A stretch of 64,000 bases of DNA from Armatimonadota bacterium (lineage in GTDB: Bacteria > Armatimonadota > Zipacnadia > Zipacnadales > JABUFB01). The position numbers and the translations under genes were made by a program. Below the pieces are notes generated by a model, which was not told the origin of the DNA, did not search any database, and worked only from the letters and a program-made list of their open reading frames with translations. Positions 48,607-64,000 of this stretch are shown piece after piece. Numbering within the stretch: position 1 is the stretch's first letter; each line of letters begins with the position of its first letter. The stretch lies in NCBI GenBank assembly GCA_013314775.1, contig JABUFB010000001.1, positions 186,001 to 250,000 on the forward strand. Direction: 5' to 3'.

Positions 48607-48897
48607 TCACCCTTGTTTTCCCGTCGCCAGGTCGTAGACCGCAGCCTCAACGCTGTTCCTGTCCACCCGCACACCACGCCGCGTCGCCTGCTCCTGGACG
48701 TACCGCATCTTTACCTCGCCATTGCCGGACCCGTAGATCTGCTCAGCCGCTTTCACAAGCTCCAGCAGCAAGGCGCGCAGCCGTTCATCGTTGATCTTCT
48801 CCACATACTTCCTGCTTACCCGAAAGGCCAGCCCGAGAAGCAGCGCGCCCAATCCCGGCACTGCAAGCACCCGCACATACTCCAGCACATTCTCCAC
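48607..48897 (-). CDS. Phage holin, LLH family
   Basis: 96 residues from a GTG start with GGAGAGG upstream. One N-terminal membrane span (about 8-27) then LLLELVKAAEQIYGSGNGEVKMRYV and VRVDRNSVEAAVYDLA, the signature of the LL-H type holins. It would permeabilise the membrane late in infection to release a lysin; no lysin gene is in the window. Confidence 0.85.
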   Translation of the reverse strand: MENVLEYVRVLAVPGLGALLLGLAFRVSRKYVEKINDERLRALLLELVKAAEQIYGSGNGEVKMRYVQEQATRRGVRVDRNSVEAAVYDLATGKQG

Positions 48898-49541: not shown

Positions 49542-50249
49542 CTACCTGAGAAGTCCCTCGCGCTCCCAGTCATACTCAAAGTCTGCGCTCTCCATCCCGT
49601 CGTTCGTGGCCGCGATCACGAAGCCGTCTCCCCTGTGATGCGCCAACACGACCCACGTGAATCCCGGGCTGTCCGACGTGACCCTCAGATCACCCGGCAC
49701 CCGGAATTCGCCCGACGCCCTGTGGTCCACCACAATTTCCACGGTCTCATTCGCGCCCACGTCCTCCTCGACGCCCGACCCGCTTACATGCCCGAACACC
49801 AGGCCGTGCCGGTCGCGTTGAGCCCCCTCGCAGGCGTTGTCCACCGCCACCACGGACCCGTCCGTGGCCAGTTCGATCGTCCCCAACAGAACGCTCCTCC
49901 CAGGACCCGGAGGCGCAAGTTGGGCGACGAAGGTCACGCTCCCATCCGGAGCAGACCCCTCCCCCGCCACCGCATACACGTAATTGACCGCGCCGTTCGT
50001 GAGCCCAGCGATCCCCGCGGATGTCCCGGTTCCACACCAGCACCCGCCGATGAGTCCCGTGCCCTCCGTGACCGTCCTGGTCTCCTCAATCATCCACCCT
50101 GCATGCACCCCGTCCCCCAGCAGGTGTCGCACCATCTCGCCAAGCGCCCGGTCAAGCGTATCCGCCAGGCGGTTGTGATGCCACGGTTCCACAAGGTCGT
50201 CCGTCTGCACATCCGTCGCCAGTCCGTAATTGGGCGTCGTTCCCGCCAT
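49542..50249 (-). CDS. Phage tail/receptor-binding-like structural protein
   Basis: 235 residues with GGAGG upstream of the ATG. Residues 10-50 resemble a short helical tail attachment segment (VEPWHHNRLADTLDRALGEMVRHLL), followed by a beta-rich, Gly/Thr/Val-rich body (GTGTSAGIAGLTNGAVNYVYAV, VNDYV-like strands). This is the composition of distal tail or fibre proteins. No domain recognised. Confidence 0.7.
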   Translation of the reverse strand: MAGTTPNYGLATDVQTDDLVEPWHHNRLADTLDRALGEMVRHLLGDGVHAGWMIEETRTVTEGTGLIGGCWCGTGTSAGIAGLTNGAVNYVYAVAGEGSAPDGSVTFVAQLAPPGPGRSVLLGTIELATDGSVVAVDNACEGAQRDRHGLVFGHVSGSGVEEDVGANETVEIVVDHRASGEFRVPGDLRVTSDSPGFTWVVLAHHRGDGFVIAATNDGMESADFEYDWEREGLLR

Positions 50250-50285: not shown

Positions 50286-50513
50286 TCATCTCGCCGCGTA
50301 GCTGGTCGCCGAATACCGCCCGCGCCCGTACAACGCGGCGCGGTGTACCTCGCCCGTCCCATCAGCACGAACCAGAAAACTCCCATTCCCGGAACCCGTC
50401 ACCTCGCGCCGCACATCTCGGTTCACCGCGACACTCGCCCCTCGTTGTCCGGGTCGCACAAGCCGCTCGATCTCCTGTCTCAAGAGCTTGATCGCCCACA
50501 TGCTATGCCCCAT
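50286..50513 (-). CDS. Small hypothetical phage protein
   Basis: 75 residues; its ATG overlaps the end of the hub-like gene (stop TAG of that gene lies inside the first codons), with a second ATG twelve bases later. Amphipathic helix first (WAIKLLRQEIERLV), then a basic, Gly-rich part. No family recognised. Confidence 0.6.
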   Translation of the reverse strand: MGHSMWAIKLLRQEIERLVRPGQRGASVAVNRDVRREVTGSGNGSFLVRADGTGEVHRAALYGRGRYSATSYAAR

Positions 50514-52779
50514 CCCCCAGCCAGCGCGCTTTCACCTGCGTCGTCGCAACCTTGCCCGAGTCCTTCCGCACCCGGTGAGTCACTTGCTCCACCCGATACT
50601 TCTGGTCAACCGCGCCCACCGTCTCCGCACCTTTGACCCGGATCACCTGCCCAACTCGGACCCCCGGCTCCAGCGGCATCGTCACCACAACATGTTCCGG
50701 CCGGGCTGACCGCTCCCGGAACAGTTCCTGGGCCAGCCGGTTCACCTCGGCTTGTGTGGTATACGTCTCCAACGCCGCGACCTCCATCTTCCGCCAGCCG
50801 ACATACACCTGCGCCTGCGCGTCAAACAGCGACGCCGGCTCGTAGATCACCGACCGCACCGGCCGGCCGTCCGGCCCAACTCCCAGCACCGCCACGTAGT
50901 TCGCAAAGTCCCCCTGGAACAGGCTTTCCCGCGGCCGCTCGATCGACAGCACGGCGCCGGGAGCATCAGGCTCGGGTGCCAGCTCGGCCCGGGTGTACAG
51001 CTCCCACCGCACTTCACTCCCGCAGGCGCCGGTCAGCGAACCGTCATGTTCCGTCAGGTTCTCCGCTGTCCGCGCATTGCGGCAGTGACGACACGCCTTC
51101 ATCAGCACGCCGTCCTCCCGGAAGAACACCGCGGCCCGGTAGTCGAACGCAGCCACTTCATCCAGGAACTCCGCCCACGTGCGCCCCGGTTCGGCCTGCC
51201 AAAGGGGCCGCTCAAAGCTCCCCGTGCTCAGCACCGTCCCCGTGTCTTCGAGCTCTCGCATCGCCTCGGGAATCCCGCACCGATCAAGCACCCACGCGAA
51301 CACGTCCTTTACCGCCCAGCCGTCGAACACCGGTGCCCGGCCGTCGCACTTCTCGTCCCGCAGTCGTACCATCGGATCGATGATCGCCGCCAGCATCCGG
51401 CTCTTCGGTCCCGCAAGCACCGCGGGCTCCGGCTCAACCAGGTACCCGTCCGCCACTGCCTCATACTCAGCCGTCCCGTCAGCCATCAGCCAGCCCAGTT
51501 CCAGCGACGCCCGCCGGTACTCCCCCGCATTCGCATGCTGCCCTAGCGAGTTATCCAGCTCAAGCGTGAACGCCGTCGCCCGGCCGTCATTACCTGACTC
51601 GCCCCACACCCTCTCGACATCCGCGCTGATGTCCGTCCATGCCGCCGCCCCGCTGTCAATGACCTCCGGGAATTGCCCGATCTGCACGCTGTACAGCTCC
51701 GGCGATACCGCCGTCTCGAACGCAGGCTCCGCAACCTGGTGCACATGCGGCGACATCGTGCATCGCCAGGCCCGTTCCGTTGCCCTTAGGTCCCCCCTCA
51801 GCGCCGTACTGTCCACTGCGGTCACTCCGGCCGAAACATTCCCATACCCATCTCGCACGGGCTGTGACCGGGCGTTCAGGATCAACTCCCCCGCACACGC
51901 CTCAGTGTCATACCCTGCCTCGATCGGCTCGCTGTCGATCTGAACCGCCGCCATTTTTATCGGGAGCACCGAGAACGCCCACTGTCCTGCGTTGTGCCAC
52001 AGCCCCAGGTGCCCCGCGCCCACCGAAACTTGCTCTGGCCCGGTCGGACAAACCCACAGGTCTTCGCTGAACCCATCCGTGGAAACAACCAGCCTCCCTC
52101 TCCACACCCCAATCCAGATCAGCAGCCGACCATCCGGTCCGTACCCCTCCAGCCGGCCAAACCGCGCTCCTCTGCCGGCGTTCGCTACACGTTCCCACAC
52201 TCCGCCCTGGCGCCGCTTCACAATCGGGCTCCCGCCGTACGGTAGCACCACCGACAACTCATGCGCGGACCCCAGCCCAAGTTCGATCGTGGTGCCTGGC
52301 GGATCGCCTCCCCAGTCGTGGTCAGGCCGCGGGGCCGTCCGGTACAGCGACACGCACACCACGGGGTTCGGCGGCAGCGTGAAACGGCTCACCGCACCCG
52401 TGCGCTCTCCCTGCCTGCCGTCGTACTGGTACAGCCGCACCTCCTCGCCCATCCCCAGACCAGTGAGCGGTAACCAGCTCCCTCCCCTGAGGTCGAAATG
52501 CTCCGTCCCCAACGCCTGGGTGGTATCCAGGAACGGGCGACAGATCACGCAGTTCAGGTCGGGGTGCTCCAGCACCATCGCCGTCGGCACAGGCGAAGCG
52601 TCACCCAACCCAGCCCCAATACCCAGTTCCGCCGGGCTAATCCGGCTGCAGACCACCGCCCCAACTCGCCACAGATCCGCGACCACATCGTACCGCCCGA
52701 ACCCGTCGTACCGCTGAATGAAGCGCTGGCCCGGCTCATAAAGCCGCGCGCGCGCTATCGGATGCTTGCGCTCAGACAT
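50503..52779 (-). CDS. Phage baseplate hub / tail-tip-like protein
   Basis: 758 residues from the ATG at 52777-52779 (GGAGAG about seven bases upstream); an ATG at 52818 is also in frame. The N-terminal half is a beta-rich laminin-like or lectin-like domain (LLIWIGVWRGRLVVSTDGF, GAGHLGLWHNAGQW). The second half has the layout of late-control/gp27-like hubs: TAFTLELDNSLGQ, VKDVFAWVLDRCGIP, TWAEFLDEVAAFDYRAAVFFREDGVLM, and EPGVRVGQVIRVKG near the end. It also has a HCRN...CxH-like Cys pair. Assignment rests on position and fold-like pattern. Confidence 0.7.
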   Translation of the reverse strand: MSERKHPIARARLYEPGQRFIQRYDGFGRYDVVADLWRVGAVVCSRISPAELGIGAGLGDASPVPTAMVLEHPDLNCVICRPFLDTTQALGTEHFDLRGGSWLPLTGLGMGEEVRLYQYDGRQGERTGAVSRFTLPPNPVVCVSLYRTAPRPDHDWGGDPPGTTIELGLGSAHELSVVLPYGGSPIVKRRQGGVWERVANAGRGARFGRLEGYGPDGRLLIWIGVWRGRLVVSTDGFSEDLWVCPTGPEQVSVGAGHLGLWHNAGQWAFSVLPIKMAAVQIDSEPIEAGYDTEACAGELILNARSQPVRDGYGNVSAGVTAVDSTALRGDLRATERAWRCTMSPHVHQVAEPAFETAVSPELYSVQIGQFPEVIDSGAAAWTDISADVERVWGESGNDGRATAFTLELDNSLGQHANAGEYRRASLELGWLMADGTAEYEAVADGYLVEPEPAVLAGPKSRMLAAIIDPMVRLRDEKCDGRAPVFDGWAVKDVFAWVLDRCGIPEAMRELEDTGTVLSTGSFERPLWQAEPGRTWAEFLDEVAAFDYRAAVFFREDGVLMKACRHCRNARTAENLTEHDGSLTGACGSEVRWELYTRAELAPEPDAPGAVLSIERPRESLFQGDFANYVAVLGVGPDGRPVRSVIYEPASLFDAQAQVYVGWRKMEVAALETYTTQAEVNRLAQELFRERSARPEHVVVTMPLEPGVRVGQVIRVKGAETVGAVDQKYRVEQVTHRVRKDSGKVATTQVKARWLGDGA

Positions 52780-52824
52780 GCCCACTCTCCCGCGCCCATT
52801 CTCGCTGTGCCGGCGCATCGTCCC

Positions 52825-53130
52825 TCAGATGGCGCTTTCTTCCGTCCACGTTTCGCCGTCGTCACAAGAGCAGTAAAACACTACGTGCGGCCATCGCGGG
52901 ATACCCACGAGCAGCGGCGACCCTTGTCCCACCAGTTTCACCAACGCCGCCCTCTGGTCGCACGCAACAGGCGCGACGCTCTTCTCCTCCGAGCCGTCCC
53001 CGTACTCCAGCCAGGTCTCATTCGCCAGGTTCAGCCGTCGGATCACGTACTCCCCGCCTCGGATTCCCACCACGTACACAATCCCGTTGTGCTCAACCGC
53101 GCTCGGGTGCGCAAGCAGCGCCTCCGCCAT
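52825..53130 (-). CDS. Small phage protein with BNR-like motif
   Basis: 101 residues. The sequence ends VVFYCSCDDGETWTEESA, which looks like a BNR/Asp-box (S-x-D-x-G-x-x-W), and VEHNGIVYVVGIRGGEYVIRRL resembles one sheet of a beta-propeller. Possibly the detached end of the larger protein upstream, which carries a similar BNR-like stretch in its last 120 residues. Confidence 0.65.
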   Translation of the reverse strand: MAEALLAHPSAVEHNGIVYVVGIRGGEYVIRRLNLANETWLEYGDGSEEKSVAPVACDQRAALVKLVGQGSPLLVGIPRWPHVVFYCSCDDGETWTEESAI

Positions 53131-53133
53131 CTC

Positions 53134-55971
53134 TCAAGCCTCCCCGGAACGCCAGTCATCCCTCGACACACTCACACGGATCTGGGAGTCGCCCCTCTGC
53201 ATCGCAAGCACCAGCCCCCCAGCGCCGTCCTTGGCCAGTGCGGGCTCGTCGCAGATCCCCTCCTTGGTCACCTGCGTTCCGCCGTCCCAGTTCCCGGCCA
53301 TCCCCATCCTGCGGTGTACTCGGATATTGCCCTCGTCGCAGTAGGCCGCGAAGATCTGGCCAAATCGGTCCTGCGCAAGACACGGGTTCCCCCACAGCCG
53401 ATCAGCCTGCACCGCAGTCGGGACCGATCGCCTCGGACCCACATCAAGCCCCGCCGCATCCGCCAGGAAAGGCACATCGGCAACCAGCGTGAACCTGCAC
53501 CCAGGCGCGCTCGCTGGCGAGACCAGCCGGACGTCCCGCACTCCCGTATACAGTCCCACGCCGCGATACGGCGCCGCAGCCGTCTCCGCCTTCAGCTTCG
53601 GCACGAGACTCACCCGCACCGCATCGCCCAACGGCACTTCCTCACACGGTCCGCGGCTTCCCGCCGGGATCGTCACCCGCCGCGTCTCCCAGGTACCGTC
53701 ACCAAGCTCGCAGTCCACATCCACGGTGAACGTCAACGGTGCCACGTATCCGGGCTCAAACACCGCCTTCAGTTGCGCCAGCCCAAGTTCCCGGCCGATC
53801 TCGGGCAGCCCCTCGAAATAGCCCATCCCGTGCCCCGCCGTGAACATCGGCGTTCCGTCACCGTCGAACCTCCCGAAACCTTTACCGTCCCCAAACCGGT
53901 CCACGTGTCGAGCTATCCACCGGGGAGCATTCGTCGGCTGAGCGGGTCCCCTCTGCCAGAGAAAGTCATCGGTTTCGTCGTAGATATCGGGCCGCCAGTG
54001 GTACCGCACCATTCTCGCTGACACCAGGTCCCTGGCCGGCACCAACACCCGTAGCATTCGCCGCCCGGTCCCACCCACCGTTGGCGTCCGAAAGAACGTC
54101 CGGCAGTCCATCGCCCTTGCATCGCCGAATACAGCGGCGCACTGTTCGCAGTACCCCTGTTCAGCCACTCCTGTTCCCGGATCACGGTGCGCAGGTCCGC
54201 CGCAATACGGGCACAGAAGGCCCGTTACGCTGGTCACATCGCACTGCCCGTCCCTGGGCCCGCACCGGGTCTCCCCAAACACCATCGGCTCCCCGAATTC
54301 CAGCCCCATCCGCGCCGCCTCCGGGTGCTCCTCGTCAATCGCCGCATCCCCGTGGGCAACCACATTCCCGTGGACCTTGCCGCCCAGGAGCATCTTGGCT
54401 TCCGGGTAATAACCCGTCGCCCGATACAGCCCTGGCGCCGTTTCCCAATTCTCGAACGGTTGTGTCCCCAGCACCAACCCCGTCGCGATGATCCCCTCTG
54501 GCTCTACCAGCGCATACTCCCGCACCACCGGTCCGCCGTACACAAGTTCCTCCAGGTTCTCCACATACCGGAACTTCGGCAGCGTTCCCTCGGTCTCCCA
54601 GCCCCCGTAACTCGCCTCCACTGTCCCGAATCGTTCCTGCGTCTCCGGGTCCTCGACCCAGATGCTCCCCGGCACCCAGGGGAAGTTCTTGTGCCCGAAA
54701 TCTCCCTTACGCCATGCCTCGGGCCGGTACTCCTCGAGCCACGACGAGTACATGCGCGCACCCAGCACCACGTCCGAATAAGGAGCGCCCAGCACCGGCA
54801 CGCTGCCCCAGGTTTCATCGTGGATAACCAACTCGCCGCCAAATCCACTCGGTGGCAACTCCGCCCACCAGAAACCGCCCTCATCCGTGGTCGCCACAGT
54901 CCCCACGATCGTGCACGTCTCCAGATCCAGCACCTTGATAGCCATTCCCACCGCCGGGACCCCCGGCCTCAGGTACACTCGCCCCGCGTAGACGAGGTCC
55001 TCGAGCGGGTACTCCTCAAGCGTCCCCATCACAACCGTGCTCGTAAGCCCCGGTTCAAGCGTCACGACCTTCCGCGCACACCCAAACGTGCTGTCCCACG
55101 TGCCCCAATCGGTCCGCCGGAACTGAACCACCGAATGCTCGCATGCCGGCAGCCCGCTGATAGTCACCTCGCCGGATGGAGGGATTTCATACGCCTGCCC
55201 CGCATCATCCATCGTCCCCACCAGCACCCACGCCCCCGGAGTGCCCACGATCCGCAGGCTCGAACTCAGCAGGTCAATCACTGCCCACCGGCCTTCGCTC
55301 GCAACCGCCTTCACACCCCGATGTACCGCGTACGTCACCTGCGCAGTCCGCTCCGGCGCCGTGTATACTGTCTCGGGGCAGTCGTCACGCCGGTCACCCT
55401 GTCGCTGGTAGATCGCTCCGTGCCCTTTCGGTGCGATGAACTCCCACTCGCCGTTCTCGTCCGTCTCGATAGGCGTCCGCACCACCGGCCCCTCAACCCA
55501 TGTCTCGAGTTCCTCGGAGTAGACCAGCTCGTTGTACTCCTGGCTGTCCCAGAACAGGACGCGTCCGTCACTCTCCGTTGCCAGTTCGGTCTCTAGGCTC
55601 ACCTGGGCCCCCTGAATCGGAGCCCCGTTCTCCAGGACGCGTCCCTGCAGCCGGTAGCCCATCACGAACGTCTCCGCGAAGGGTGCCGCGCGAAACTCGG
55701 TCCCCTGCACTCGCACGCCCCAGTACCCGTCATCCACCAGCACCGCATACCGCTCAACCGGCAGGCCGCGCCACATCTCTTGCACCAGCCATACCCGCAC
55801 TCCGGCCAGCGCCACGTCGGGCCCTCGCGCCTTGAACACCTGACCGCTGATGGTCCCGTCCGTAACTTCAAACGCGAACGAGCCATCCTCGTCCGCCTGC
55901 GTCCCTGCCACCACTGTCCCACTCGCCGCTCCCAGCCCCACCGCGTCCTGTAGCTTGAATCGACAGATCAT
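53134..55971 (-). CDS. Large beta-rich phage tail protein with carboxypeptidase-regulatory-like domains and zinc ribbon
   Basis: 945 residues with GGAGG seven bases before the ATG. Repeated beta-sandwich segments have the look of carboxypeptidase-regulatory domains (ADEDGSFAFEV, LQGRVLENGAPIQGAQVSLETELATESDGRV, YAGRVYLRPGVPAVGMAIKVLDLETCTIVGTVATTDEGGFWWAELP). A zinc ribbon follows near 610-650 (CPYCGGPAHRD...YCEQCAAVFG). The last 110 residues carry BNR-like strands (CLAQDRFGQIFAAYCDEGNIRV, EPALAKDGAGGLVLAMQ). Likely a long tail fibre or tip protein that contacts host surface polymers; that role is inferred. Confidence 0.75.
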   Translation of the reverse strand: MICRFKLQDAVGLGAASGTVVAGTQADEDGSFAFEVTDGTISGQVFKARGPDVALAGVRVWLVQEMWRGLPVERYAVLVDDGYWGVRVQGTEFRAAPFAETFVMGYRLQGRVLENGAPIQGAQVSLETELATESDGRVLFWDSQEYNELVYSEELETWVEGPVVRTPIETDENGEWEFIAPKGHGAIYQRQGDRRDDCPETVYTAPERTAQVTYAVHRGVKAVASEGRWAVIDLLSSSLRIVGTPGAWVLVGTMDDAGQAYEIPPSGEVTISGLPACEHSVVQFRRTDWGTWDSTFGCARKVVTLEPGLTSTVVMGTLEEYPLEDLVYAGRVYLRPGVPAVGMAIKVLDLETCTIVGTVATTDEGGFWWAELPPSGFGGELVIHDETWGSVPVLGAPYSDVVLGARMYSSWLEEYRPEAWRKGDFGHKNFPWVPGSIWVEDPETQERFGTVEASYGGWETEGTLPKFRYVENLEELVYGGPVVREYALVEPEGIIATGLVLGTQPFENWETAPGLYRATGYYPEAKMLLGGKVHGNVVAHGDAAIDEEHPEAARMGLEFGEPMVFGETRCGPRDGQCDVTSVTGLLCPYCGGPAHRDPGTGVAEQGYCEQCAAVFGDARAMDCRTFFRTPTVGGTGRRMLRVLVPARDLVSARMVRYHWRPDIYDETDDFLWQRGPAQPTNAPRWIARHVDRFGDGKGFGRFDGDGTPMFTAGHGMGYFEGLPEIGRELGLAQLKAVFEPGYVAPLTFTVDVDCELGDGTWETRRVTIPAGSRGPCEEVPLGDAVRVSLVPKLKAETAAAPYRGVGLYTGVRDVRLVSPASAPGCRFTLVADVPFLADAAGLDVGPRRSVPTAVQADRLWGNPCLAQDRFGQIFAAYCDEGNIRVHRRMGMAGNWDGGTQVTKEGICDEPALAKDGAGGLVLAMQRGDSQIRVSVSRDDWRSGEA

Positions 55972-56727: not shown

Positions 56728-57048
56728 TCACGTCAGCCCTTTGCCATCCCCGCTCGCCGGCCATAGCTCCACCCGCCACCACGGCCACATCTCCAGAGCC
56801 TCGATTCCCGGTCTCATCCCCGCCGCGTCCACCAACCGCTGGTCACAACGCCCCAACGCAACCAGCCTTACTGCGAGGCACGAAAGCGCCCGAACCGCCC
56901 TCGGCCCCAGCACCCGTTCCAGTGCCGCCTGACTTGCGAAATCCGTCCCCTCGCGCACCCGGGGCACATCCGCTGGCCCATCGTCAGCACTCACCAGCCC
57001 AACTGGGCTTATCCCCGCGGTCCCACGCAGGTTCGCCAGCGCCCTCAC
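56728..57048 (-). CDS. Tail assembly chaperone, T part (expressed by -1 frameshift from G)
   Basis: 106-codon frame that begins exactly where a -1 slip on the heptamer at 57048-57054 would place the ribosome (first codon GTG at 57048). It has no ribosome site of its own. Sequence: VRALANLRGTAG near the start, ALERVLGPRAVRALSCLAVRLVALGRCDQRLVDAAGM, and WPWWRVELWPA near the end. As in lambda gpGT, the fused product (about 265 residues) would be made at low frequency beside G. Confidence 0.75.
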   Translation of the reverse strand: MRALANLRGTAGISPVGLVSADDGPADVPRVREGTDFASQAALERVLGPRAVRALSCLAVRLVALGRCDQRLVDAAGMRPGIEALEMWPWWRVELWPASGDGKGLT

Positions 57049-57524
57049 TTTTTTTTCGCGTCATCCAGTGCTTGCCTTCCCGCGCGATCACGCAGGTTCA
57101 CTTTCGCCAGGCATTCCTCGATCCACTCACCAATTTCAGGGCTCAGCTCGGACAGGAACACCTCTCTCTCGCACGGCTCAAGCGTCCCCGCCTCCCGGAC
57201 TCTCACCCGGCCGTCCTCACCGCGCTCCGGCAGTGCGAAATCCACCAGGCACCGCTCTAGCTCATAGAGTCGCATCGCCCACAGATCATACTGTCTCCGA
57301 ACGCTCAGCACCCGCGCGTGGTCGTCCAGTTCATACTCCTCAACCGTCCCCACGCTCTCGCGCTCCAGGCTCTCCCGGTACGTCAACGGGCGCACCACGA
57401 CCCACGCCTCGCAGTCATCCCCGGGGTATTCGAAGCGCACCGCTTTGCCGGGCTGGGCGACGTGTGTCACCCATTGGCATCGCTCAGCTTCGCCCGCGAT
57501 AACGCCGCCGTCCCCCTCACTCAC
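57045..57524 (-). CDS. Tail assembly chaperone, G part
   Basis: 159 residues from the GTG at 57522-57524, which overlaps the tail tube stop (GTGA). Motifs: FEYPGDDCEAWVVVRPLTYRESL, YELDDHARVLSVRRQYDLWAMRLYELERCLVDF, EREVFLSELSPEIGEWIEECL and the lysine run AKKK just before the stop. This is the position and length of lambda gpG-like chaperones. The lysine codons AAA AAA AAG form the slippery site. Confidence 0.8.
   Translation of the reverse strand: MSEGDGGVIAGEAERCQWVTHVAQPGKAVRFEYPGDDCEAWVVVRPLTYRESLERESVGTVEEYELDDHARVLSVRRQYDLWAMRLYELERCLVDFALPERGEDGRVRVREAGTLEPCEREVFLSELSPEIGEWIEECLAKVNLRDRAGRQALDDAKKK
57048..57054 (-). promoter_or_regulatory. Programmed -1 frameshift site A AAA AAG
   Basis: The minus strand reads GCG AAA AAA AAG TGA in the G frame, with eight consecutive A. 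The heptamer A AAA AAG is the most efficient bacterial -1 slippery sequence. A slip of one base moves the ribosome to GTG AGG GCG of the T frame, which stays open for 106 codons. Downstream structure was not evaluated by folding. Confidence 0.8.
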
Positions 57525-58426
57525 GCAAGCACCACCGGGGGCGTCACCCCATCTGCGCTTCCCAGCGCTACGAAACTCACTTCCTCCACGATCCTCCGTG
57601 CATGGGATCCCGGCAGCCCCAGGTCCGATCCCGAATACAGAACCCGTGGCAGATGGATCGTCGCCACAGTCACGTCGCGCTCCAGCGTGAGCACCAGCGC
57701 GGCCTCCTGCCCCGACACGAAGTCCCCATACACCCCGGCATCCACGAAGTCCCGCGACAGGCTCCCGGTGCACCGCAACCCCGCCAGGTTATATAGTTGC
57801 GTCGGGTTGCCGGTCTCTCCCAGCCGCAAGCCCTCCGCCGGATCCTCCAGCATCGTGTTGATCTCGATCCGGATAGCCTCGCAGTTCACATCCTCGGCCA
57901 CCGCCTGGCCGCCCACCGAAAGCTCAACCTTTGCTTCTCGGAACAGGTACGGTGCGGACAGAGGCATCACCGGATTGGCCGTTCCACCCCTCTCCATCTT
58001 CAGGCCCGCGACTTCCAGTGTGCACGTCACCGGCTCGCCTTTCACCAGGTCGAATACCGCCTTGGCCACCTTCAGATCCGTCAGCTTCTTGACCTCATGT
58101 ACGCAGTCGATCAGCGCCGACGCCCACTTGCCCTGGTTGTCCGCGTCTCGGTCCTGGATCCAGGCGAACAGTTGGCTCACGCTGCCCGGGATCACTGGAA
58201 AACGCAGCCTGCCCTCAGCCCACTCTCCTGCCGAATAGTAGCTGGTCTGGTAGTCCTTCCCGTCGGCCGTGTCCAGCATCACATAGTTCTTCTTCCACTC
58301 AACCGTGTCCACCGGGGTATCGCTGTCCCCCATCAGCGGCAGCCAGGTGCTCGGAGCCTGGTACACACCTTTCTGCGCTTGCAGTCCGAAACCGAATGCC
58401 CCGTCCATCGAAAGGGCCACCGACAT
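57521..58426 (-). CDS. Phage major tail tube protein
   Basis: 301 residues from the ATG at 58424-58426 with GAGGGTG upstream; an ATG at 58525 is in frame but unsupported. AFGFGLQAQKGVYQAPSTWLPL is typical of the start of tail tube proteins, and LRFPVIPGSVSQLFAWIQDRD, GEPVTCTLEVAGLKM, RIEINTMLEDPAEGL and RDVTVATIHLPRVLY read as the beta-strands of a tube fold. Position just before the G/T cassette supports the call. Confidence 0.8.
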   Translation of the reverse strand: MSVALSMDGAFGFGLQAQKGVYQAPSTWLPLMGDSDTPVDTVEWKKNYVMLDTADGKDYQTSYYSAGEWAEGRLRFPVIPGSVSQLFAWIQDRDADNQGKWASALIDCVHEVKKLTDLKVAKAVFDLVKGEPVTCTLEVAGLKMERGGTANPVMPLSAPYLFREAKVELSVGGQAVAEDVNCEAIRIEINTMLEDPAEGLRLGETGNPTQLYNLAGLRCTGSLSRDFVDAGVYGDFVSGQEAALVLTLERDVTVATIHLPRVLYSGSDLGLPGSHARRIVEEVSFVALGSADGVTPPVVLA

Positions 58427-58899: not shown

Positions 58900-59595
58900 T
58901 CACCCCGCCGCATCTGCCGCCGGCTCCTGCGCCCGCAGCCCCACCATATCCAGCCGCACCACCCGCAGCCCCGATAACCGCTCGTCCACTGCCGCTTGCT
59001 CTCGCGGGGCGTAGTCAACCCCAACCACCTGCGAGTACCAGCAGGTACCCGCCAGGTAGGGGTCGCGCATCAGCAGGCTAAACAGCCGCCCGACTTCCTC
59101 GAGCAGCCGTAATTCCGCTTCCTCACCCTCGCGCTCTTGTCTGACGTAGTACACGCTGCTGTGGTACTCCTGGCTGTACGAGCGGTTTGTGCCCCCCATC
59201 ACTGGCTGCTCAAGTCGCGTCGGGGCAACGACAACACACGGGAACCCTACCGTGCCGGGCTGTGGGGCCAGTTCGGGCTTCCCGCGACCCACCCACGCCA
59301 ATTCAGGCACAATATCGCTGAGCAGAACCACCCGAGCGCCGGCATCCACCGCATAGTCCCCGGTTACGCTGCTGTCCAGCATCACCTGCGTCCGCCCGCC
59401 TAAGCCGGCGACGGTGCGAATCTCTCCGGCCTGCCGGTCATCCTCCACCCGCACACTGTCGCCCACTCGCAGGATCTTGTTGCTCCCTACTTCGAGCACA
59501 TTGCCACCGCTCACATCCGCACTCAACCTCACCGCACCTCGGCAAAGGTCGCAGATGGCCCCGAGTATCTCTGCATGATGGTGCATGCCCGGCAT
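58900..59595 (-). CDS. Phage tail-completion / head-tail joining-like protein
   Basis: 231 residues. N-terminal GMHHHAEILGAICDLCRGAVRL, a beta-rich middle (KILRVGDSVRVEDD, VMLDSSVTGDY), then GFPCVVVAPTRLE and YHSSVYYVRQEREGEEAELRLLEEVGRLFSLLM, which resembles tail terminator/completion proteins (gpU- or gp17-like). Position between head closure and tail tube agrees. The start may lie at the ATG of MHHHAEI, three codons in. Confidence 0.65.
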   Translation of the reverse strand: MPGMHHHAEILGAICDLCRGAVRLSADVSGGNVLEVGSNKILRVGDSVRVEDDRQAGEIRTVAGLGGRTQVMLDSSVTGDYAVDAGARVVLLSDIVPELAWVGRGKPELAPQPGTVGFPCVVVAPTRLEQPVMGGTNRSYSQEYHSSVYYVRQEREGEEAELRLLEEVGRLFSLLMRDPYLAGTCWYSQVVGVDYAPREQAAVDERLSGLRVVRLDMVGLRAQEPAADAAG

Positions 59596-59784: not shown

Positions 59785-60330
59785 CTACCCCTCTCGCGCC
59801 CTCAGATCCAGCCTCACATGATGTCCTTTGCCCGCTTCGTCTCGCACCCCACACACCTCGTACACGCTCACCACGTACACCGGCTCGCCTGCCGTGTGCC
59901 CGGTCGTCATCGGCCCATCCACCGCAGCTTCATCCCCATCGCAACTCACCACCAGGCGCAGCTCCGAGTCCACACCCGCTCCCAACTCCACACGCAACCC
60001 CGCAACGAGACCCGCTTCATCGGACACCCGGAACACCCTCGAACCCGCCGCAACATCCTCTGCCAATTCAAGCCGCACCACCCGCTCCACCAGCAGGTCA
60101 CCCGCGCGCACATCCGCAGGCTCCAGGTACGCCACATGCGTCGCCTTCTCAGCCTGACCGATCACCGTCTCGCCGTACTCCGAACTCACGGGCTGTAGCG
60201 TGCACGGAACGTCCTCAGTCACCAGCACATACCGGGGTCTGCGTGGGCTGCCAAGCGTCGACACATCCACCTGCGGCCGACGTACGCTCACCACATCGCG
60301 CAGCAGTGTCAGGAAGCTACCGTCTCCCAT
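59785..60330 (-). CDS. Phage head-closure-like protein
   Basis: 181 residues. Starts with FLTLLRDVVSVRRPQ, has a VTEDVPCTLQPVSSEYGETVIGQAEKATHVAYLEP strand set similar to head-tail joining/head-closure proteins (Phage_H_T_join-like), and a long beta-rich insertion. Position right after the connector supports it; the assignment is moderate. Confidence 0.65.
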   Translation of the reverse strand: MGDGSFLTLLRDVVSVRRPQVDVSTLGSPRRPRYVLVTEDVPCTLQPVSSEYGETVIGQAEKATHVAYLEPADVRAGDLLVERVVRLELAEDVAAGSRVFRVSDEAGLVAGLRVELGAGVDSELRLVVSCDGDEAAVDGPMTTGHTAGEPVYVVSVYEVCGVRDEAGKGHHVRLDLRAREG

Positions 60331-60439: not shown

Positions 60440-61081
60440 TCAGATCGCCGCCAGCCGCAACTTCCGGTAAGAGCGCGCTGCGCTCCGGGCATCCGTCACC
60501 CAGCGCTCGATCACCCCGGCATGTTCCCCACCCGATCCGTAGTCCACTGCATAGTCCCCGATCTGCAGCCGCTCAACAGACCCCCGGTCACCCGCGCACT
60601 CGCTCAGGATTTGCGCCGCAACCAGCCGCGCCTGGGCCATCCGGATCTCCTGCGGGGCCCCGTTGTAGCCCCAGTCCGCGGTGACCTCAACATTCGCCAG
60701 ACCCTCCGGGAACTCGCCCGACCTCAGCCGGATCACCGCCTCCGGGTAGTACACAACGTACTCTTCGGTGCTCAGCTTGCGCCCGCCCACCACCACCGAA
60801 TGAACCGCCAGCAGGGGCGAGACACCCAGCGGTCCCAGCATGAGCCGACCCTCGCCCTGGCCGTCACACATGACCACTTCGTCCGAATGAAGCAGAAAAT
60901 CCCTGCCGGCCTCCGCATCGATCGCCGCCATGCTCACAGGCATCAGCCCGCGGACCCTCAACTCCAGCGCGTCACTGTCACCAATTGCCGATACGTCATG
61001 CCCCGCCAGCAATCGAAACACATCATCCACCGTGCAGTACCACTCGAACAGCCCGGTCACGAACACTCCCTCTGCACTCAT
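60440..61081 (-). CDS. Phage head-tail connector protein
   Basis: 213 residues from the ATG at 61079-61081, overlapping the preceding stop (ATGA). FEWYCTVDDVFRLLAGHDVS at the N-terminus, GRDFLLHSDEVVM, YYPEAVIRL, NVEVTADWGYNGAPQEIRMAQARLVAAQIL and VERLQIGDYAVDYGSG are the usual gp6/gp15-type connector features. It bridges portal to tail completion proteins. Confidence 0.78.
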   Translation of the reverse strand: MSAEGVFVTGLFEWYCTVDDVFRLLAGHDVSAIGDSDALELRVRGLMPVSMAAIDAEAGRDFLLHSDEVVMCDGQGEGRLMLGPLGVSPLLAVHSVVVGGRKLSTEEYVVYYPEAVIRLRSGEFPEGLANVEVTADWGYNGAPQEIRMAQARLVAAQILSECAGDRGSVERLQIGDYAVDYGSGGEHAGVIERWVTDARSAARSYRKLRLAAI

Positions 61082-63942
61082 CCTGCCGACCACACCCCCT
61101 GGCTGTTGCGAGCCTGCACCCGCCAGAAATACACCTTGTTGCTCGCCAGTTCCACTGCCGACAGCGTCACCCGCGTCGCATCGGACTCCACCACGCCGCT
61201 GTCCCACACATCCGCAAGGCCCGCCGCCAGCTTATCCCGGCTCGTCGCCACCAGCACCCGGTATGCCGTCTGCGGATACCCACTCGGGTCCGCATACTCC
61301 CAGGACAGCTCCGGCGCCGGGTCCAGCACCGCAATCGGGTTTGTCTCTCCCTCGACTTTCAGACTGCCAACCACAGGCGGCGGAATCGCCGTTGCACGGC
61401 GCACTCTCCACGCATACACGCGCGGCGTCTCGGCCCCCGCGTCATGCCGGCTCAACACGAACCGCAGCCGTATCGCGTCCATCGTCAGGCTGGACAGCAG
61501 CACCCCGCCCCACCTCACCTGCGCATTCACGCTGTCCCCCAGCGCATCACAATCCGCCGCCGAGAACCCCGGCAGGACCTCCTCCGTCTCCGCATCCACC
61601 ACCTCGACCCGCACCGATCCCGCCCCCTGGGTCGAGTTCAGCCGCAGCGTCCCCCAGCCACCCACGGGCCGTTCCAGGATTGGCGTCTCGAAGAAACCAC
61701 TCGTCGCCGTTGCCTGAAGCTCGTACCATGCCTCTCCATCCAGCCGCACCCATCCGAAGTTCACGAAGTCCCCGGCCCCGTAGTAGTACACGCGCCGGTC
61801 GCCAAGCTGGAAGGGCCGACCGGGCCCTAGTCGTGTCGGTTCTCCCGGCAACTGACCTTGCGGGAGCCACTCACTGTGCGAAGCGAAGGTTTGGAAATGA
61901 ATCCCGTCCTCGCTCACATAGCAGTACACACCCGACGTCGCCGCGGTCGCGGTGTCGCTGTAAAGACCGATGCAGTCCGACTGCCCCAACACCGCCACAT
62001 CGCACGAATGAACCAGCGGAGCCGGCAACGGCGACACCATGTTCCCGTGCGGAAGCGGCCTCATGCTCCGCAGGTCGCCGCCCTGGATGCCGATCAAAGG
62101 GCGCATATCCAGCGCGTAGTTGTACGATCGGTGGTTGATCGACTTCCCCCGAGCATACCCCACGAATCGCCGGCTCTCATCGGTCGCGTACGGGTTGTCA
62201 GTGATCCGCCACCCGGCATCGCGGTTGGCCCATGCGCTCGAAGCGTTCCCGTCCGGCAGAACCGGCTCGGCTCCCCCGATGATCGGAGAAATCGGATTCC
62301 CCCGCCAGAAATGCTCCTCGCGGGAAAAGCTCCAGCGGTCCTCGGCCCCGGTCAGCAGGTACGCCATGAAATGATCCGGGTGCGATGTCTGCCCGATGTA
62401 CACCAGTGACCACAGCCCGTCGCCACCCTGCAGCACCGCCGTTGGATACGAAGAGGACACCGGCCCGTCCCCCTCCGGAGCCGGACGCAGGTCATCCTGA
62501 GCCATGAACGGATTGGACTTACCCGCGGGCGGGACCTCGTCCACCCACTTGATCCGCCCCGTCACCGCATCCCAACTGCCCACAACGTACCCCAGACGCG
62601 CCACTCCATCCGGACCCGTGCCCGTCAACAGCGCGGTGATCTCCTGCCTGGACTCGTCGTAGCATACGGGGATCGGCCACGAGCCCACCGTCTCACGCCA
62701 CGTCCCCGCCTTGCACAAGTCAGCCTTCGCCGCCGCAGGGGCCTGGCACTTCGTCGGCCGCGTCTTCTGCCGCGCGACGCCGCTGCTGCGCCACACCTTC
62801 GTGCTCTGCCCGTTGCCCGCAACCACCATGAAGTTGTCCGCGAAATCCGGTCCATCCCCGGCCGGACCCCTCCGCAGCCGCTGGTAAGTGGTCGGCCCAT
62901 CCAGCTCAACACGCTCCAGAAGCACACGGCAGGACAGCGTATTGTCCTCATGCACCGACGGCTTCCCGTAGCACGCGCCCCAGTCCAGCGTGGAGTGATT
63001 CGCCCCATCCATGTACACCGTCCGCCCACGGTCATACCGCAGCATGTTCGGAACCAGGTTCTCAGCGCTGTTGGCTCCCACGAATTGCCACTCAAGCTCC
63101 GTGAAGAGCCGCGAGTCACCGTGGAACTCCCACAGCCACGCATCCGTGCTCATGTCTTCCATCCGCGTCCCGTACGACGTGGACCCGTATGACCGGCACC
63201 CCTGGATCCTGGCCCGGAAATCCACCACCGCAATACTGCCGGCTGCGGGAACCGCTGGCAGCGCGCTCTCTAGCGTGATCACCCGCGTCGTCGCGTCATA
63301 CGAGGCCACCTTGAGCCGCCGTCCGCCGCAGTTGGAGCCCAGGAACGTGATCATCGCACCGGCCCAGTAATTCGTCCCATACTCAGCCCCGAGATCCGTC
63401 TTGAACTGGGTCGTCGTGTTCCCCGCGTCAGCCACCACCGTGAGCCGTCGCCCACTGCCCCACTGGTCGAACACATTGTCTGCACCGGTCGGGTAGTGAA
63501 CATAGTCGACAGGTCCGATACGCACCACCCGACCCATCGGTGTGTCGGCCATCGGAATGTGCAGTCGCTGCCGGTACGTGCACGGAGGGTTCATCACCCG
63601 TGCGTCGAACACCGGCGTTCCAGCAAAATACGCACCCACCCGCCGGCTCTGGGTGTATCCCGCCAACACCCGCAGATCAGCGTATGTCGCCTCGTTGATG
63701 TCCTGCAGGTAAGCCGCCCTGCCCGCATCCACGTTTAGCGGCCAAGGGACGCTCAGCGGCACGCGGTCATCCTCGCTCAGATCGTGCCGCGGCATCCCCA
63801 GCAGGAAACTCAGCCGTCCCTGGTGCCTGGCCCCGTCGTCCACAAGACAGTATCTGTCCTGCGCCCCGGGCGCATAGAACGTCCCGTCTCCCGCCGCAAT
63901 CTGGGCGTCATACTGCCCGTCGAAATGCGCATACAGGGTCAT
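61078..63942 (-). CDS. Very large phage structural protein with lectin-like and fibronectin-like regions
   Basis: About 954 residues from the ATG at 63940-63942; an ATG at 63987 is in frame and the frame is open to the window edge, so the true start could lie outside. The N-terminus TLYAHFDGQYDAQIAAGDGT resembles LamG-like concanavalin folds. The middle has YWAGAMITFLGSNCGGRRL and several propeller-like Trp-rich strands (WSLVYIGQTSHPDHFMAYLLTG). The last 110 residues (PELSWEYADPSGYPQTAYRVLVAT, KVYFWRVQARNSQGVWS) match fibronectin-III-like domains. It lies where capsid or decoration genes are expected, so a capsid fibre is one reading. Confidence 0.7.
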   Translation of the reverse strand: MTLYAHFDGQYDAQIAAGDGTFYAPGAQDRYCLVDDGARHQGRLSFLLGMPRHDLSEDDRVPLSVPWPLNVDAGRAAYLQDINEATYADLRVLAGYTQSRRVGAYFAGTPVFDARVMNPPCTYRQRLHIPMADTPMGRVVRIGPVDYVHYPTGADNVFDQWGSGRRLTVVADAGNTTTQFKTDLGAEYGTNYWAGAMITFLGSNCGGRRLKVASYDATTRVITLESALPAVPAAGSIAVVDFRARIQGCRSYGSTSYGTRMEDMSTDAWLWEFHGDSRLFTELEWQFVGANSAENLVPNMLRYDRGRTVYMDGANHSTLDWGACYGKPSVHEDNTLSCRVLLERVELDGPTTYQRLRRGPAGDGPDFADNFMVVAGNGQSTKVWRSSGVARQKTRPTKCQAPAAAKADLCKAGTWRETVGSWPIPVCYDESRQEITALLTGTGPDGVARLGYVVGSWDAVTGRIKWVDEVPPAGKSNPFMAQDDLRPAPEGDGPVSSSYPTAVLQGGDGLWSLVYIGQTSHPDHFMAYLLTGAEDRWSFSREEHFWRGNPISPIIGGAEPVLPDGNASSAWANRDAGWRITDNPYATDESRRFVGYARGKSINHRSYNYALDMRPLIGIQGGDLRSMRPLPHGNMVSPLPAPLVHSCDVAVLGQSDCIGLYSDTATAATSGVYCYVSEDGIHFQTFASHSEWLPQGQLPGEPTRLGPGRPFQLGDRRVYYYGAGDFVNFGWVRLDGEAWYELQATATSGFFETPILERPVGGWGTLRLNSTQGAGSVRVEVVDAETEEVLPGFSAADCDALGDSVNAQVRWGGVLLSSLTMDAIRLRFVLSRHDAGAETPRVYAWRVRRATAIPPPVVGSLKVEGETNPIAVLDPAPELSWEYADPSGYPQTAYRVLVATSRDKLAAGLADVWDSGVVESDATRVTLSAVELASNKVYFWRVQARNSQGVWSAG

Positions 63943-64000
63943 TGTTCCCGGCCCGTCCTCCGGCCGGATCCGTCCTCGTGCACCCATCGCATACAGAGCA

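Follow-up and report, generated by a model that had tools for sequence, protein, structure and literature searches.

Gene content of the locus

The window, the whole stretch of 64,000 nucleotides that was analysed, comes from a member of the Zipacnadia, the name proposed for class UBA5377 of Armatimonadota (PMC10290634). It contains most of a cluster of phage-type head and tail genes that runs from 48607 to about 69702 (window-plus-L028 coordinates), or some 21 kb. In order, its genes encode terminase, portal, protease, capsid, a large Ig/fn3 protein, adaptors and the tail tube; after the tube come a gene pair that we call G-T, a short ORF, ORF945, ORF101, a hub, ORF235, small ORFs and a holin-like gene (Table 1). 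All 14 genomes in which it was mapped share this order over the length of the available contigs; several contigs of other genomes contain just a part of the cluster. Neither of the two genes between adaptor and tube matches a known family. No integrase or replication gene was seen in the window's own cluster; the flanks of the clusters in other genomes were scanned in part.

Table 1. Features of the cluster in the window and of related clusters
Feature	Position	Strand	Basis or remark
Large Ig/fn3-domain protein ORF1133	61078..64000	minus	Continues past window
Head-tail adaptor	60440..61093	minus	phrog_442, E 6.9e-15
Conserved 181-aa gene between head-tail adaptor and tube, presumed connector	59785..60330	minus	Same place in relatives
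Conserved 231-aa gene between adaptor and tube, presumed connector or tail terminator	58900..59595	minus	Same place in relatives
Tail tube protein	57521..58420	minus	PF18906 Phage_tube_2, E 1.8e-10; start approximate
Gene G, predicted tail-assembly chaperone, 159 aa	57045..57524	minus	Follows tube gene; homologues; fold
Eight-A run	57056-57049	minus	
Slippery heptamer A_AAA_AAG	57054-57048	minus	Sequence; in-phase counterpart in 23 other genomes
Zero-frame TGA stop	57047-57045	minus	Directly 3' of heptamer
T domain, 106 aa, -1 frame, proposed G-T fusion	56728..57048	minus	Conserved REGxDF and PAWR motifs
Short Arg-rich ORF, tape-measure slot, up to 259 aa	56009..56788	minus	Start uncertain
ORF945, conserved tail-region protein	53134..55971	minus	CarboxypepD_reg domain
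ORF101, conserved small tail-region protein	52825..53130	minus	
Tail hub-like protein	50503..52785	minus	phrog_52 tail protein, E 1.2e-6
ORF235, conserved tail-region protein	49542..50249	minus	
Holin-like protein, 3' end of cluster	48607..48897	minus	phrog_6918 holin, E 2.1e-6
yidC/jag side of cluster	window:46068-48543; L030:23004-25379; L036:6936-9386		
Glycosyltransferase genes, family f6	L032:2105-3169; L032:5405-6478; L033:3058-4113; also L037, L041, L043		
Extra ORF, family f4	L035:12472-12768; L045:5931-6224; L046:8179-8454		

The surroundings of the cluster and some of its inserts vary among relatives. It adjoins yidC and jag in the window's genome (G000), in G002 and in G019, with a different relative orientation in G019. 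In family f6, genes matching Glycos_transf_1 and Glyco_transf_9 (Pfam) are interspersed among the phage genes, so that f6 clusters are longer. Family f4 has an additional ORF of 91-98 aa between tube and G; one of these was scanned and had no Pfam match. In G036 a tyrosine recombinase gene (Phage_integrase; L034:9740-10666) precedes the terminase gene at a distance of about 3.4 kb.

Neither G nor T matches a family in Pfam, PHROG or NCBIfam at useful E-values, and scans of genome and viral contigs with the single G protein gave no relative; relatives were found by scanning with a tube alignment. The structural model of G has a mean pLDDT of 86. The best viral matches in a fold search with it were tape-measure and tail-assembly chaperones, several at probabilities of 0.99-1.00 and with modest E-values, one of them below 0.001; against solved structures (PDB) G had no match by sequence or by fold. 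The T model is small and helical (pLDDT 71), and a fold search with it found no match.

The original prediction took the T frame to mark the position of the tape-measure gene as well. An ORF does follow T where lambda has its tape measure, but it is short and Arg-rich and matches no tape-measure family (Pfam and PHROG searched). Among relatives this ORF is length-variable (about 140-330 codons) and fast-evolving (in a single pair of relatives, dN 0.088 and dS 0.234, a ratio of about 0.37), and in many homologues it ends in a RLELAR-like C-terminus. Its position suggests that it may be the tape measure.

A slippery heptamer at the end of G

On the minus strand, the sequence of bases 57080-57020 is ...GATGACGCGAAAAAAAAGTGAGGGCGCTG..., and the G frame ends GAT GAC GCG AAA AAA AAG TGA. 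The heptamer A_AAA_AAG is phased as tandem -1 slippage requires. The site lies at the coordinates originally predicted for it; the strand, which that prediction did not give, is minus. Also as predicted, a one-base back-slip leads to the first codon of a 106-codon frame (VRALANLR...): the codon after the slip is GTG (57048-57046). Within the 51 kb examined around the site, the eight-A run is the sole A/T run of at least 7, and its AAA-AAA lysine pair is the only one among the genes called there, in which 21% of Lys codons are AAA.

Ribosomes translating G would meet the A run three codons before the stop. Most would read on to the TGA and release G, the predicted tail-assembly chaperone; in a minority the two lysyl-tRNAs would re-pair on A_AAA_AAG after slipping back one base, and T would then be translated to give G-T. 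By analogy with lambda, G would form a coat on the tape protein, and T would serve to recruit tube subunits. What comparison shows is the site, its phase, the open -1 frame, their conservation and the chaperone-like fold of G; that slippage takes place, how efficient it is and what G and G-T do are inferred.

Conservation of the site across the Zipacnadia

Homologues of G were found in 25 of the 46 class genomes, one in each, G000 included. Of these 25 loci, all except that of G020 (L027) carry a heptamer at the end of G, which makes 23 genomes besides G000; one of the 23 is G032, an incomplete MAG. When the -1 frame was required to stay open for at least 70 codons, the site was again present in 24 genomes including G000, with G005 gained and G032 dropped. 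In this stricter set the -1 frame measures 89-133 codons from the heptamer, being cut by the contig end in G023 and G027, and in most homologues the zero-frame stop lies no more than four codons from the heptamer. Most homologues keep both an A run and the -1 frame, the two features that the original prediction had singled out for checking. An assembly error in the run, which the original prediction had named as a way for it to fail, is not borne out since the run is common to independent assemblies.

The heptamers are mostly A_AAA_AAA, A_AAA_AAG or A_AAA_AAC. Turnover is seen within one genus, in which G025 and G027 have G_GGA_AAA and G026 retains A_AAA_AAA; in G003, G016 and G018 both A_AAA_AAA and A_AAA_AAC are in phase. 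As a check on chance, in-phase heptamers were counted in 318 genes (104,576 codons) of 15 genomes, where AAA makes up 2-38% of Lys codons in these GC-rich genes. There were 22; each genome has exactly one at the end of G, which accounts for 15 of them. The slip-site run is the sole A/T run of at least 7 in the stretch examined in 12 of the 15; G036 and G038 have further such runs, and the GGGAAAA site of G025 leaves that genome with none. The heptamer occurs at the end of G more often than expected by chance.

No conserved RNA structure was found around or after the slip site. A Shine-Dalgarno-like stimulator lies upstream of it in only 7 of 23 homologues, mildly above the background frequency. 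Both results count against the frameshift reading.

Three genomes of the class break the pattern. In G032 the -1 frame closes 62 bases past the G stop. In G045 no G is recognisable after the tube, and only a T-like LREGRDF stretch is left (L096). In G020 there is no slip site, and G, T and the next short ORF form one continuous frame (L093).

Fusion of G and T or a separate start for T

Does T begin as a gene of its own or as an extension of G? Under translational coupling, T would start at GTG 57048 by termination-reinitiation and no G-T fusion would be made. This GTG overlaps the TGA of G, so that GTGA doubles as a stop/start overlap, and the tube-G junction (57524-57521) carries an identical GTGA by which G itself may start; with such an overlap, which the original prediction did not mention, at both junctions, coupling is a serious competitor when only this genome is considered. 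It fares less well across the class. In 17 of the 23 aligned homologues the -1 frame has no ATG, GTG or TTG in the first six or so codons past the site, so that T is not, in most homologues, the stand-alone gene with its own start that the original prediction would have counted against itself. In several homologues of family f6 the first possible start comes only at codon 16-18, yet T is conserved from the site up to codon 18, with substitutions there numbering 94, 68 and 143 at positions 1, 2 and 3 of the -1-frame codons (G034, G035, G037, G036, G038 and G039). As had been noted for the T frame, GTG 57048 has no Shine-Dalgarno sequence ahead of it; moreover coupling has no need of a conserved slippery heptamer. 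The one continuous frame of G020, a natural fusion that differs from G019 by a net two bases and rests on a single MAG, also tells against it. We therefore consider coupling without fusion very improbable.

Transcriptional slippage, a known alternative to ribosomal frameshifting (PMC5009743), could join T to the zero frame of G in part of the mRNA if the polymerase added an A within the run. Eight-A runs like that of the window are found in many homologues, which speaks for such a process. However, only seven A are present in G019, G021, G022, G023, G026, G042 and G005, and the GGGAAAA of G025 and G027 offers no long run; these sites make polymerase slippage less likely. Nor would the polymerase need the heptamer phase, which is kept throughout. 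We rate this explanation as being just as doubtful as coupling.

A -1 frameshift of the lambda G/GT type is strongly supported by sequence comparison together with the chaperone-like fold predicted for G. The lambda design named in the original prediction is upheld by the conserved phase, the open -1 frame, the turnover of the heptamer, the conservation of T ahead of its first possible start, the natural fusion and that predicted fold. We accordingly hold it highly probable that this is a minus-strand -1 frameshift producing G and G-T, most likely in a vertically inherited locus for a gene-transfer-agent-like particle of the Zipacnadia.

Distribution and inheritance of the cluster

The tube gene was found in 27 of the 46 class genomes, and portal matches add G015, G040 and G043 as carriers. 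Nearly all carriers have a single copy. Searches of 245 other Armatimonadota genomes and of 50,697 phage records gave no tube match. The search also found no tube gene in 19 of the 46 genomes, some of them nearly complete, so that repeated loss of the element, or repeated failure to detect it, has to be assumed.

Families f1, f4 and f6 are recovered in the tube tree, where f7 also groups with f8; the RecA tree shows the same f7-f8 pair, recovers f1, f3 and f4, and places two f6 rows (G042 and G045) loosely. Tube and RecA distances are correlated (Mantel r 0.756, p 0.0001), the tube being only about 1.27 times as divergent as RecA. Between G035 and G037, dN/dS values of 0.06-0.31 indicate purifying selection in all genes compared. 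The parallel between the trees and the dN/dS values support vertical inheritance and selection, as judged from a single gene each of element and host and a single pair of relatives, and the cluster looks vertically inherited.

G021 and G022, which belong to different genera, have identical tube proteins (L079 and L080) and RecA proteins that differ; this points to recent transfer or mis-binning.

Gene transfer agent or prophage

Head and tail genes, the lack of any integrase or replication gene seen in the window's own cluster and the apparently vertical inheritance make the cluster resemble a gene transfer agent (GTA), and a GTA-like setting is probable on these comparisons. Features of a GTA that were found are a head/tail cluster in the host chromosome, inheritance with the host and purifying selection, the last two within the scope just given. 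In place of the phage setting implied by the original prediction, the cluster has the look of a vertically inherited, GTA-like element and not of an ordinary phage genome.

An ordinary prophage or a decaying remnant would account for the fact that genes with known-family matches are mostly phage head and tail genes, for the absence of the cluster from many class genomes and for the recombinase upstream in G036. It would sit less easily with the single copy seen in nearly every carrier, the constant gene order of the 14 mapped genomes, a tube tree that runs parallel to RecA at little more divergence, and purifying selection in every gene compared. It also has to contend with the empty searches of phage records and of other Armatimonadota genomes, and two of the four IMG/VR matches agree with class MAG contigs in length or match position. 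We regard a prophage or remnant as unlikely, though less so than either alternative to frameshifting. The fuller reading, that this is an independently domesticated GTA-like element, ancestral to most Zipacnadia, which has kept lambda-type frameshifting and whose tape measure has shrunk to a short Arg-rich protein of variable length, has in our estimate an even chance of being right. The literature covered, which was partial, contained no description of a phage-like or GTA element from Zipacnadia.

Comparison with known systems

As in lambda G/GT, a design widely conserved among long-tailed phages (PMC5009743), the predicted chaperone gene follows the tail tube gene, a -1 slip would occur near its 3' end, and a second frame would be appended as a C-terminal domain. 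Unlike in lambda, the genes here have no sequence similarity that we could find to known families, the heptamer is A_AAA_AAG and the gene after T is not a recognisable tape measure. The window's heptamer is also that of E. coli dnaX, and was the most shift-prone of the heptamers compared in E. coli (PMC5009743). In dnaX, stimulatory signals, among them a Shine-Dalgarno sequence upstream, also contribute to frameshifting (PMC5600365), whereas no such signal is conserved at the Zipacnadia site.

The GTA of Rhodobacter capsulatus (RcGTA) is likewise encoded by a head-and-tail gene cluster resident in bacterial chromosomes. RcGTA has a short tail (49 nm) and a short tape measure protein, and the account of its structure does not mention a chaperone or a frameshift (PMC7296036). 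The Zipacnadia cluster differs in its tube family, Phage_tube_2, and in its host, Armatimonadota.

Frameshifting of this kind is familiar from phages. The setting is what makes the case noteworthy: the slip site persists across a class of uncultured bacteria and lies in a cluster whose inheritance appears to be that of a host gene. Should the cluster prove to be a GTA, Armatimonadota would join the groups that have one, and, with the conserved G/G-T pair beside a short tape ORF of variable length, the relation of chaperone ratio to tail length could be tested.
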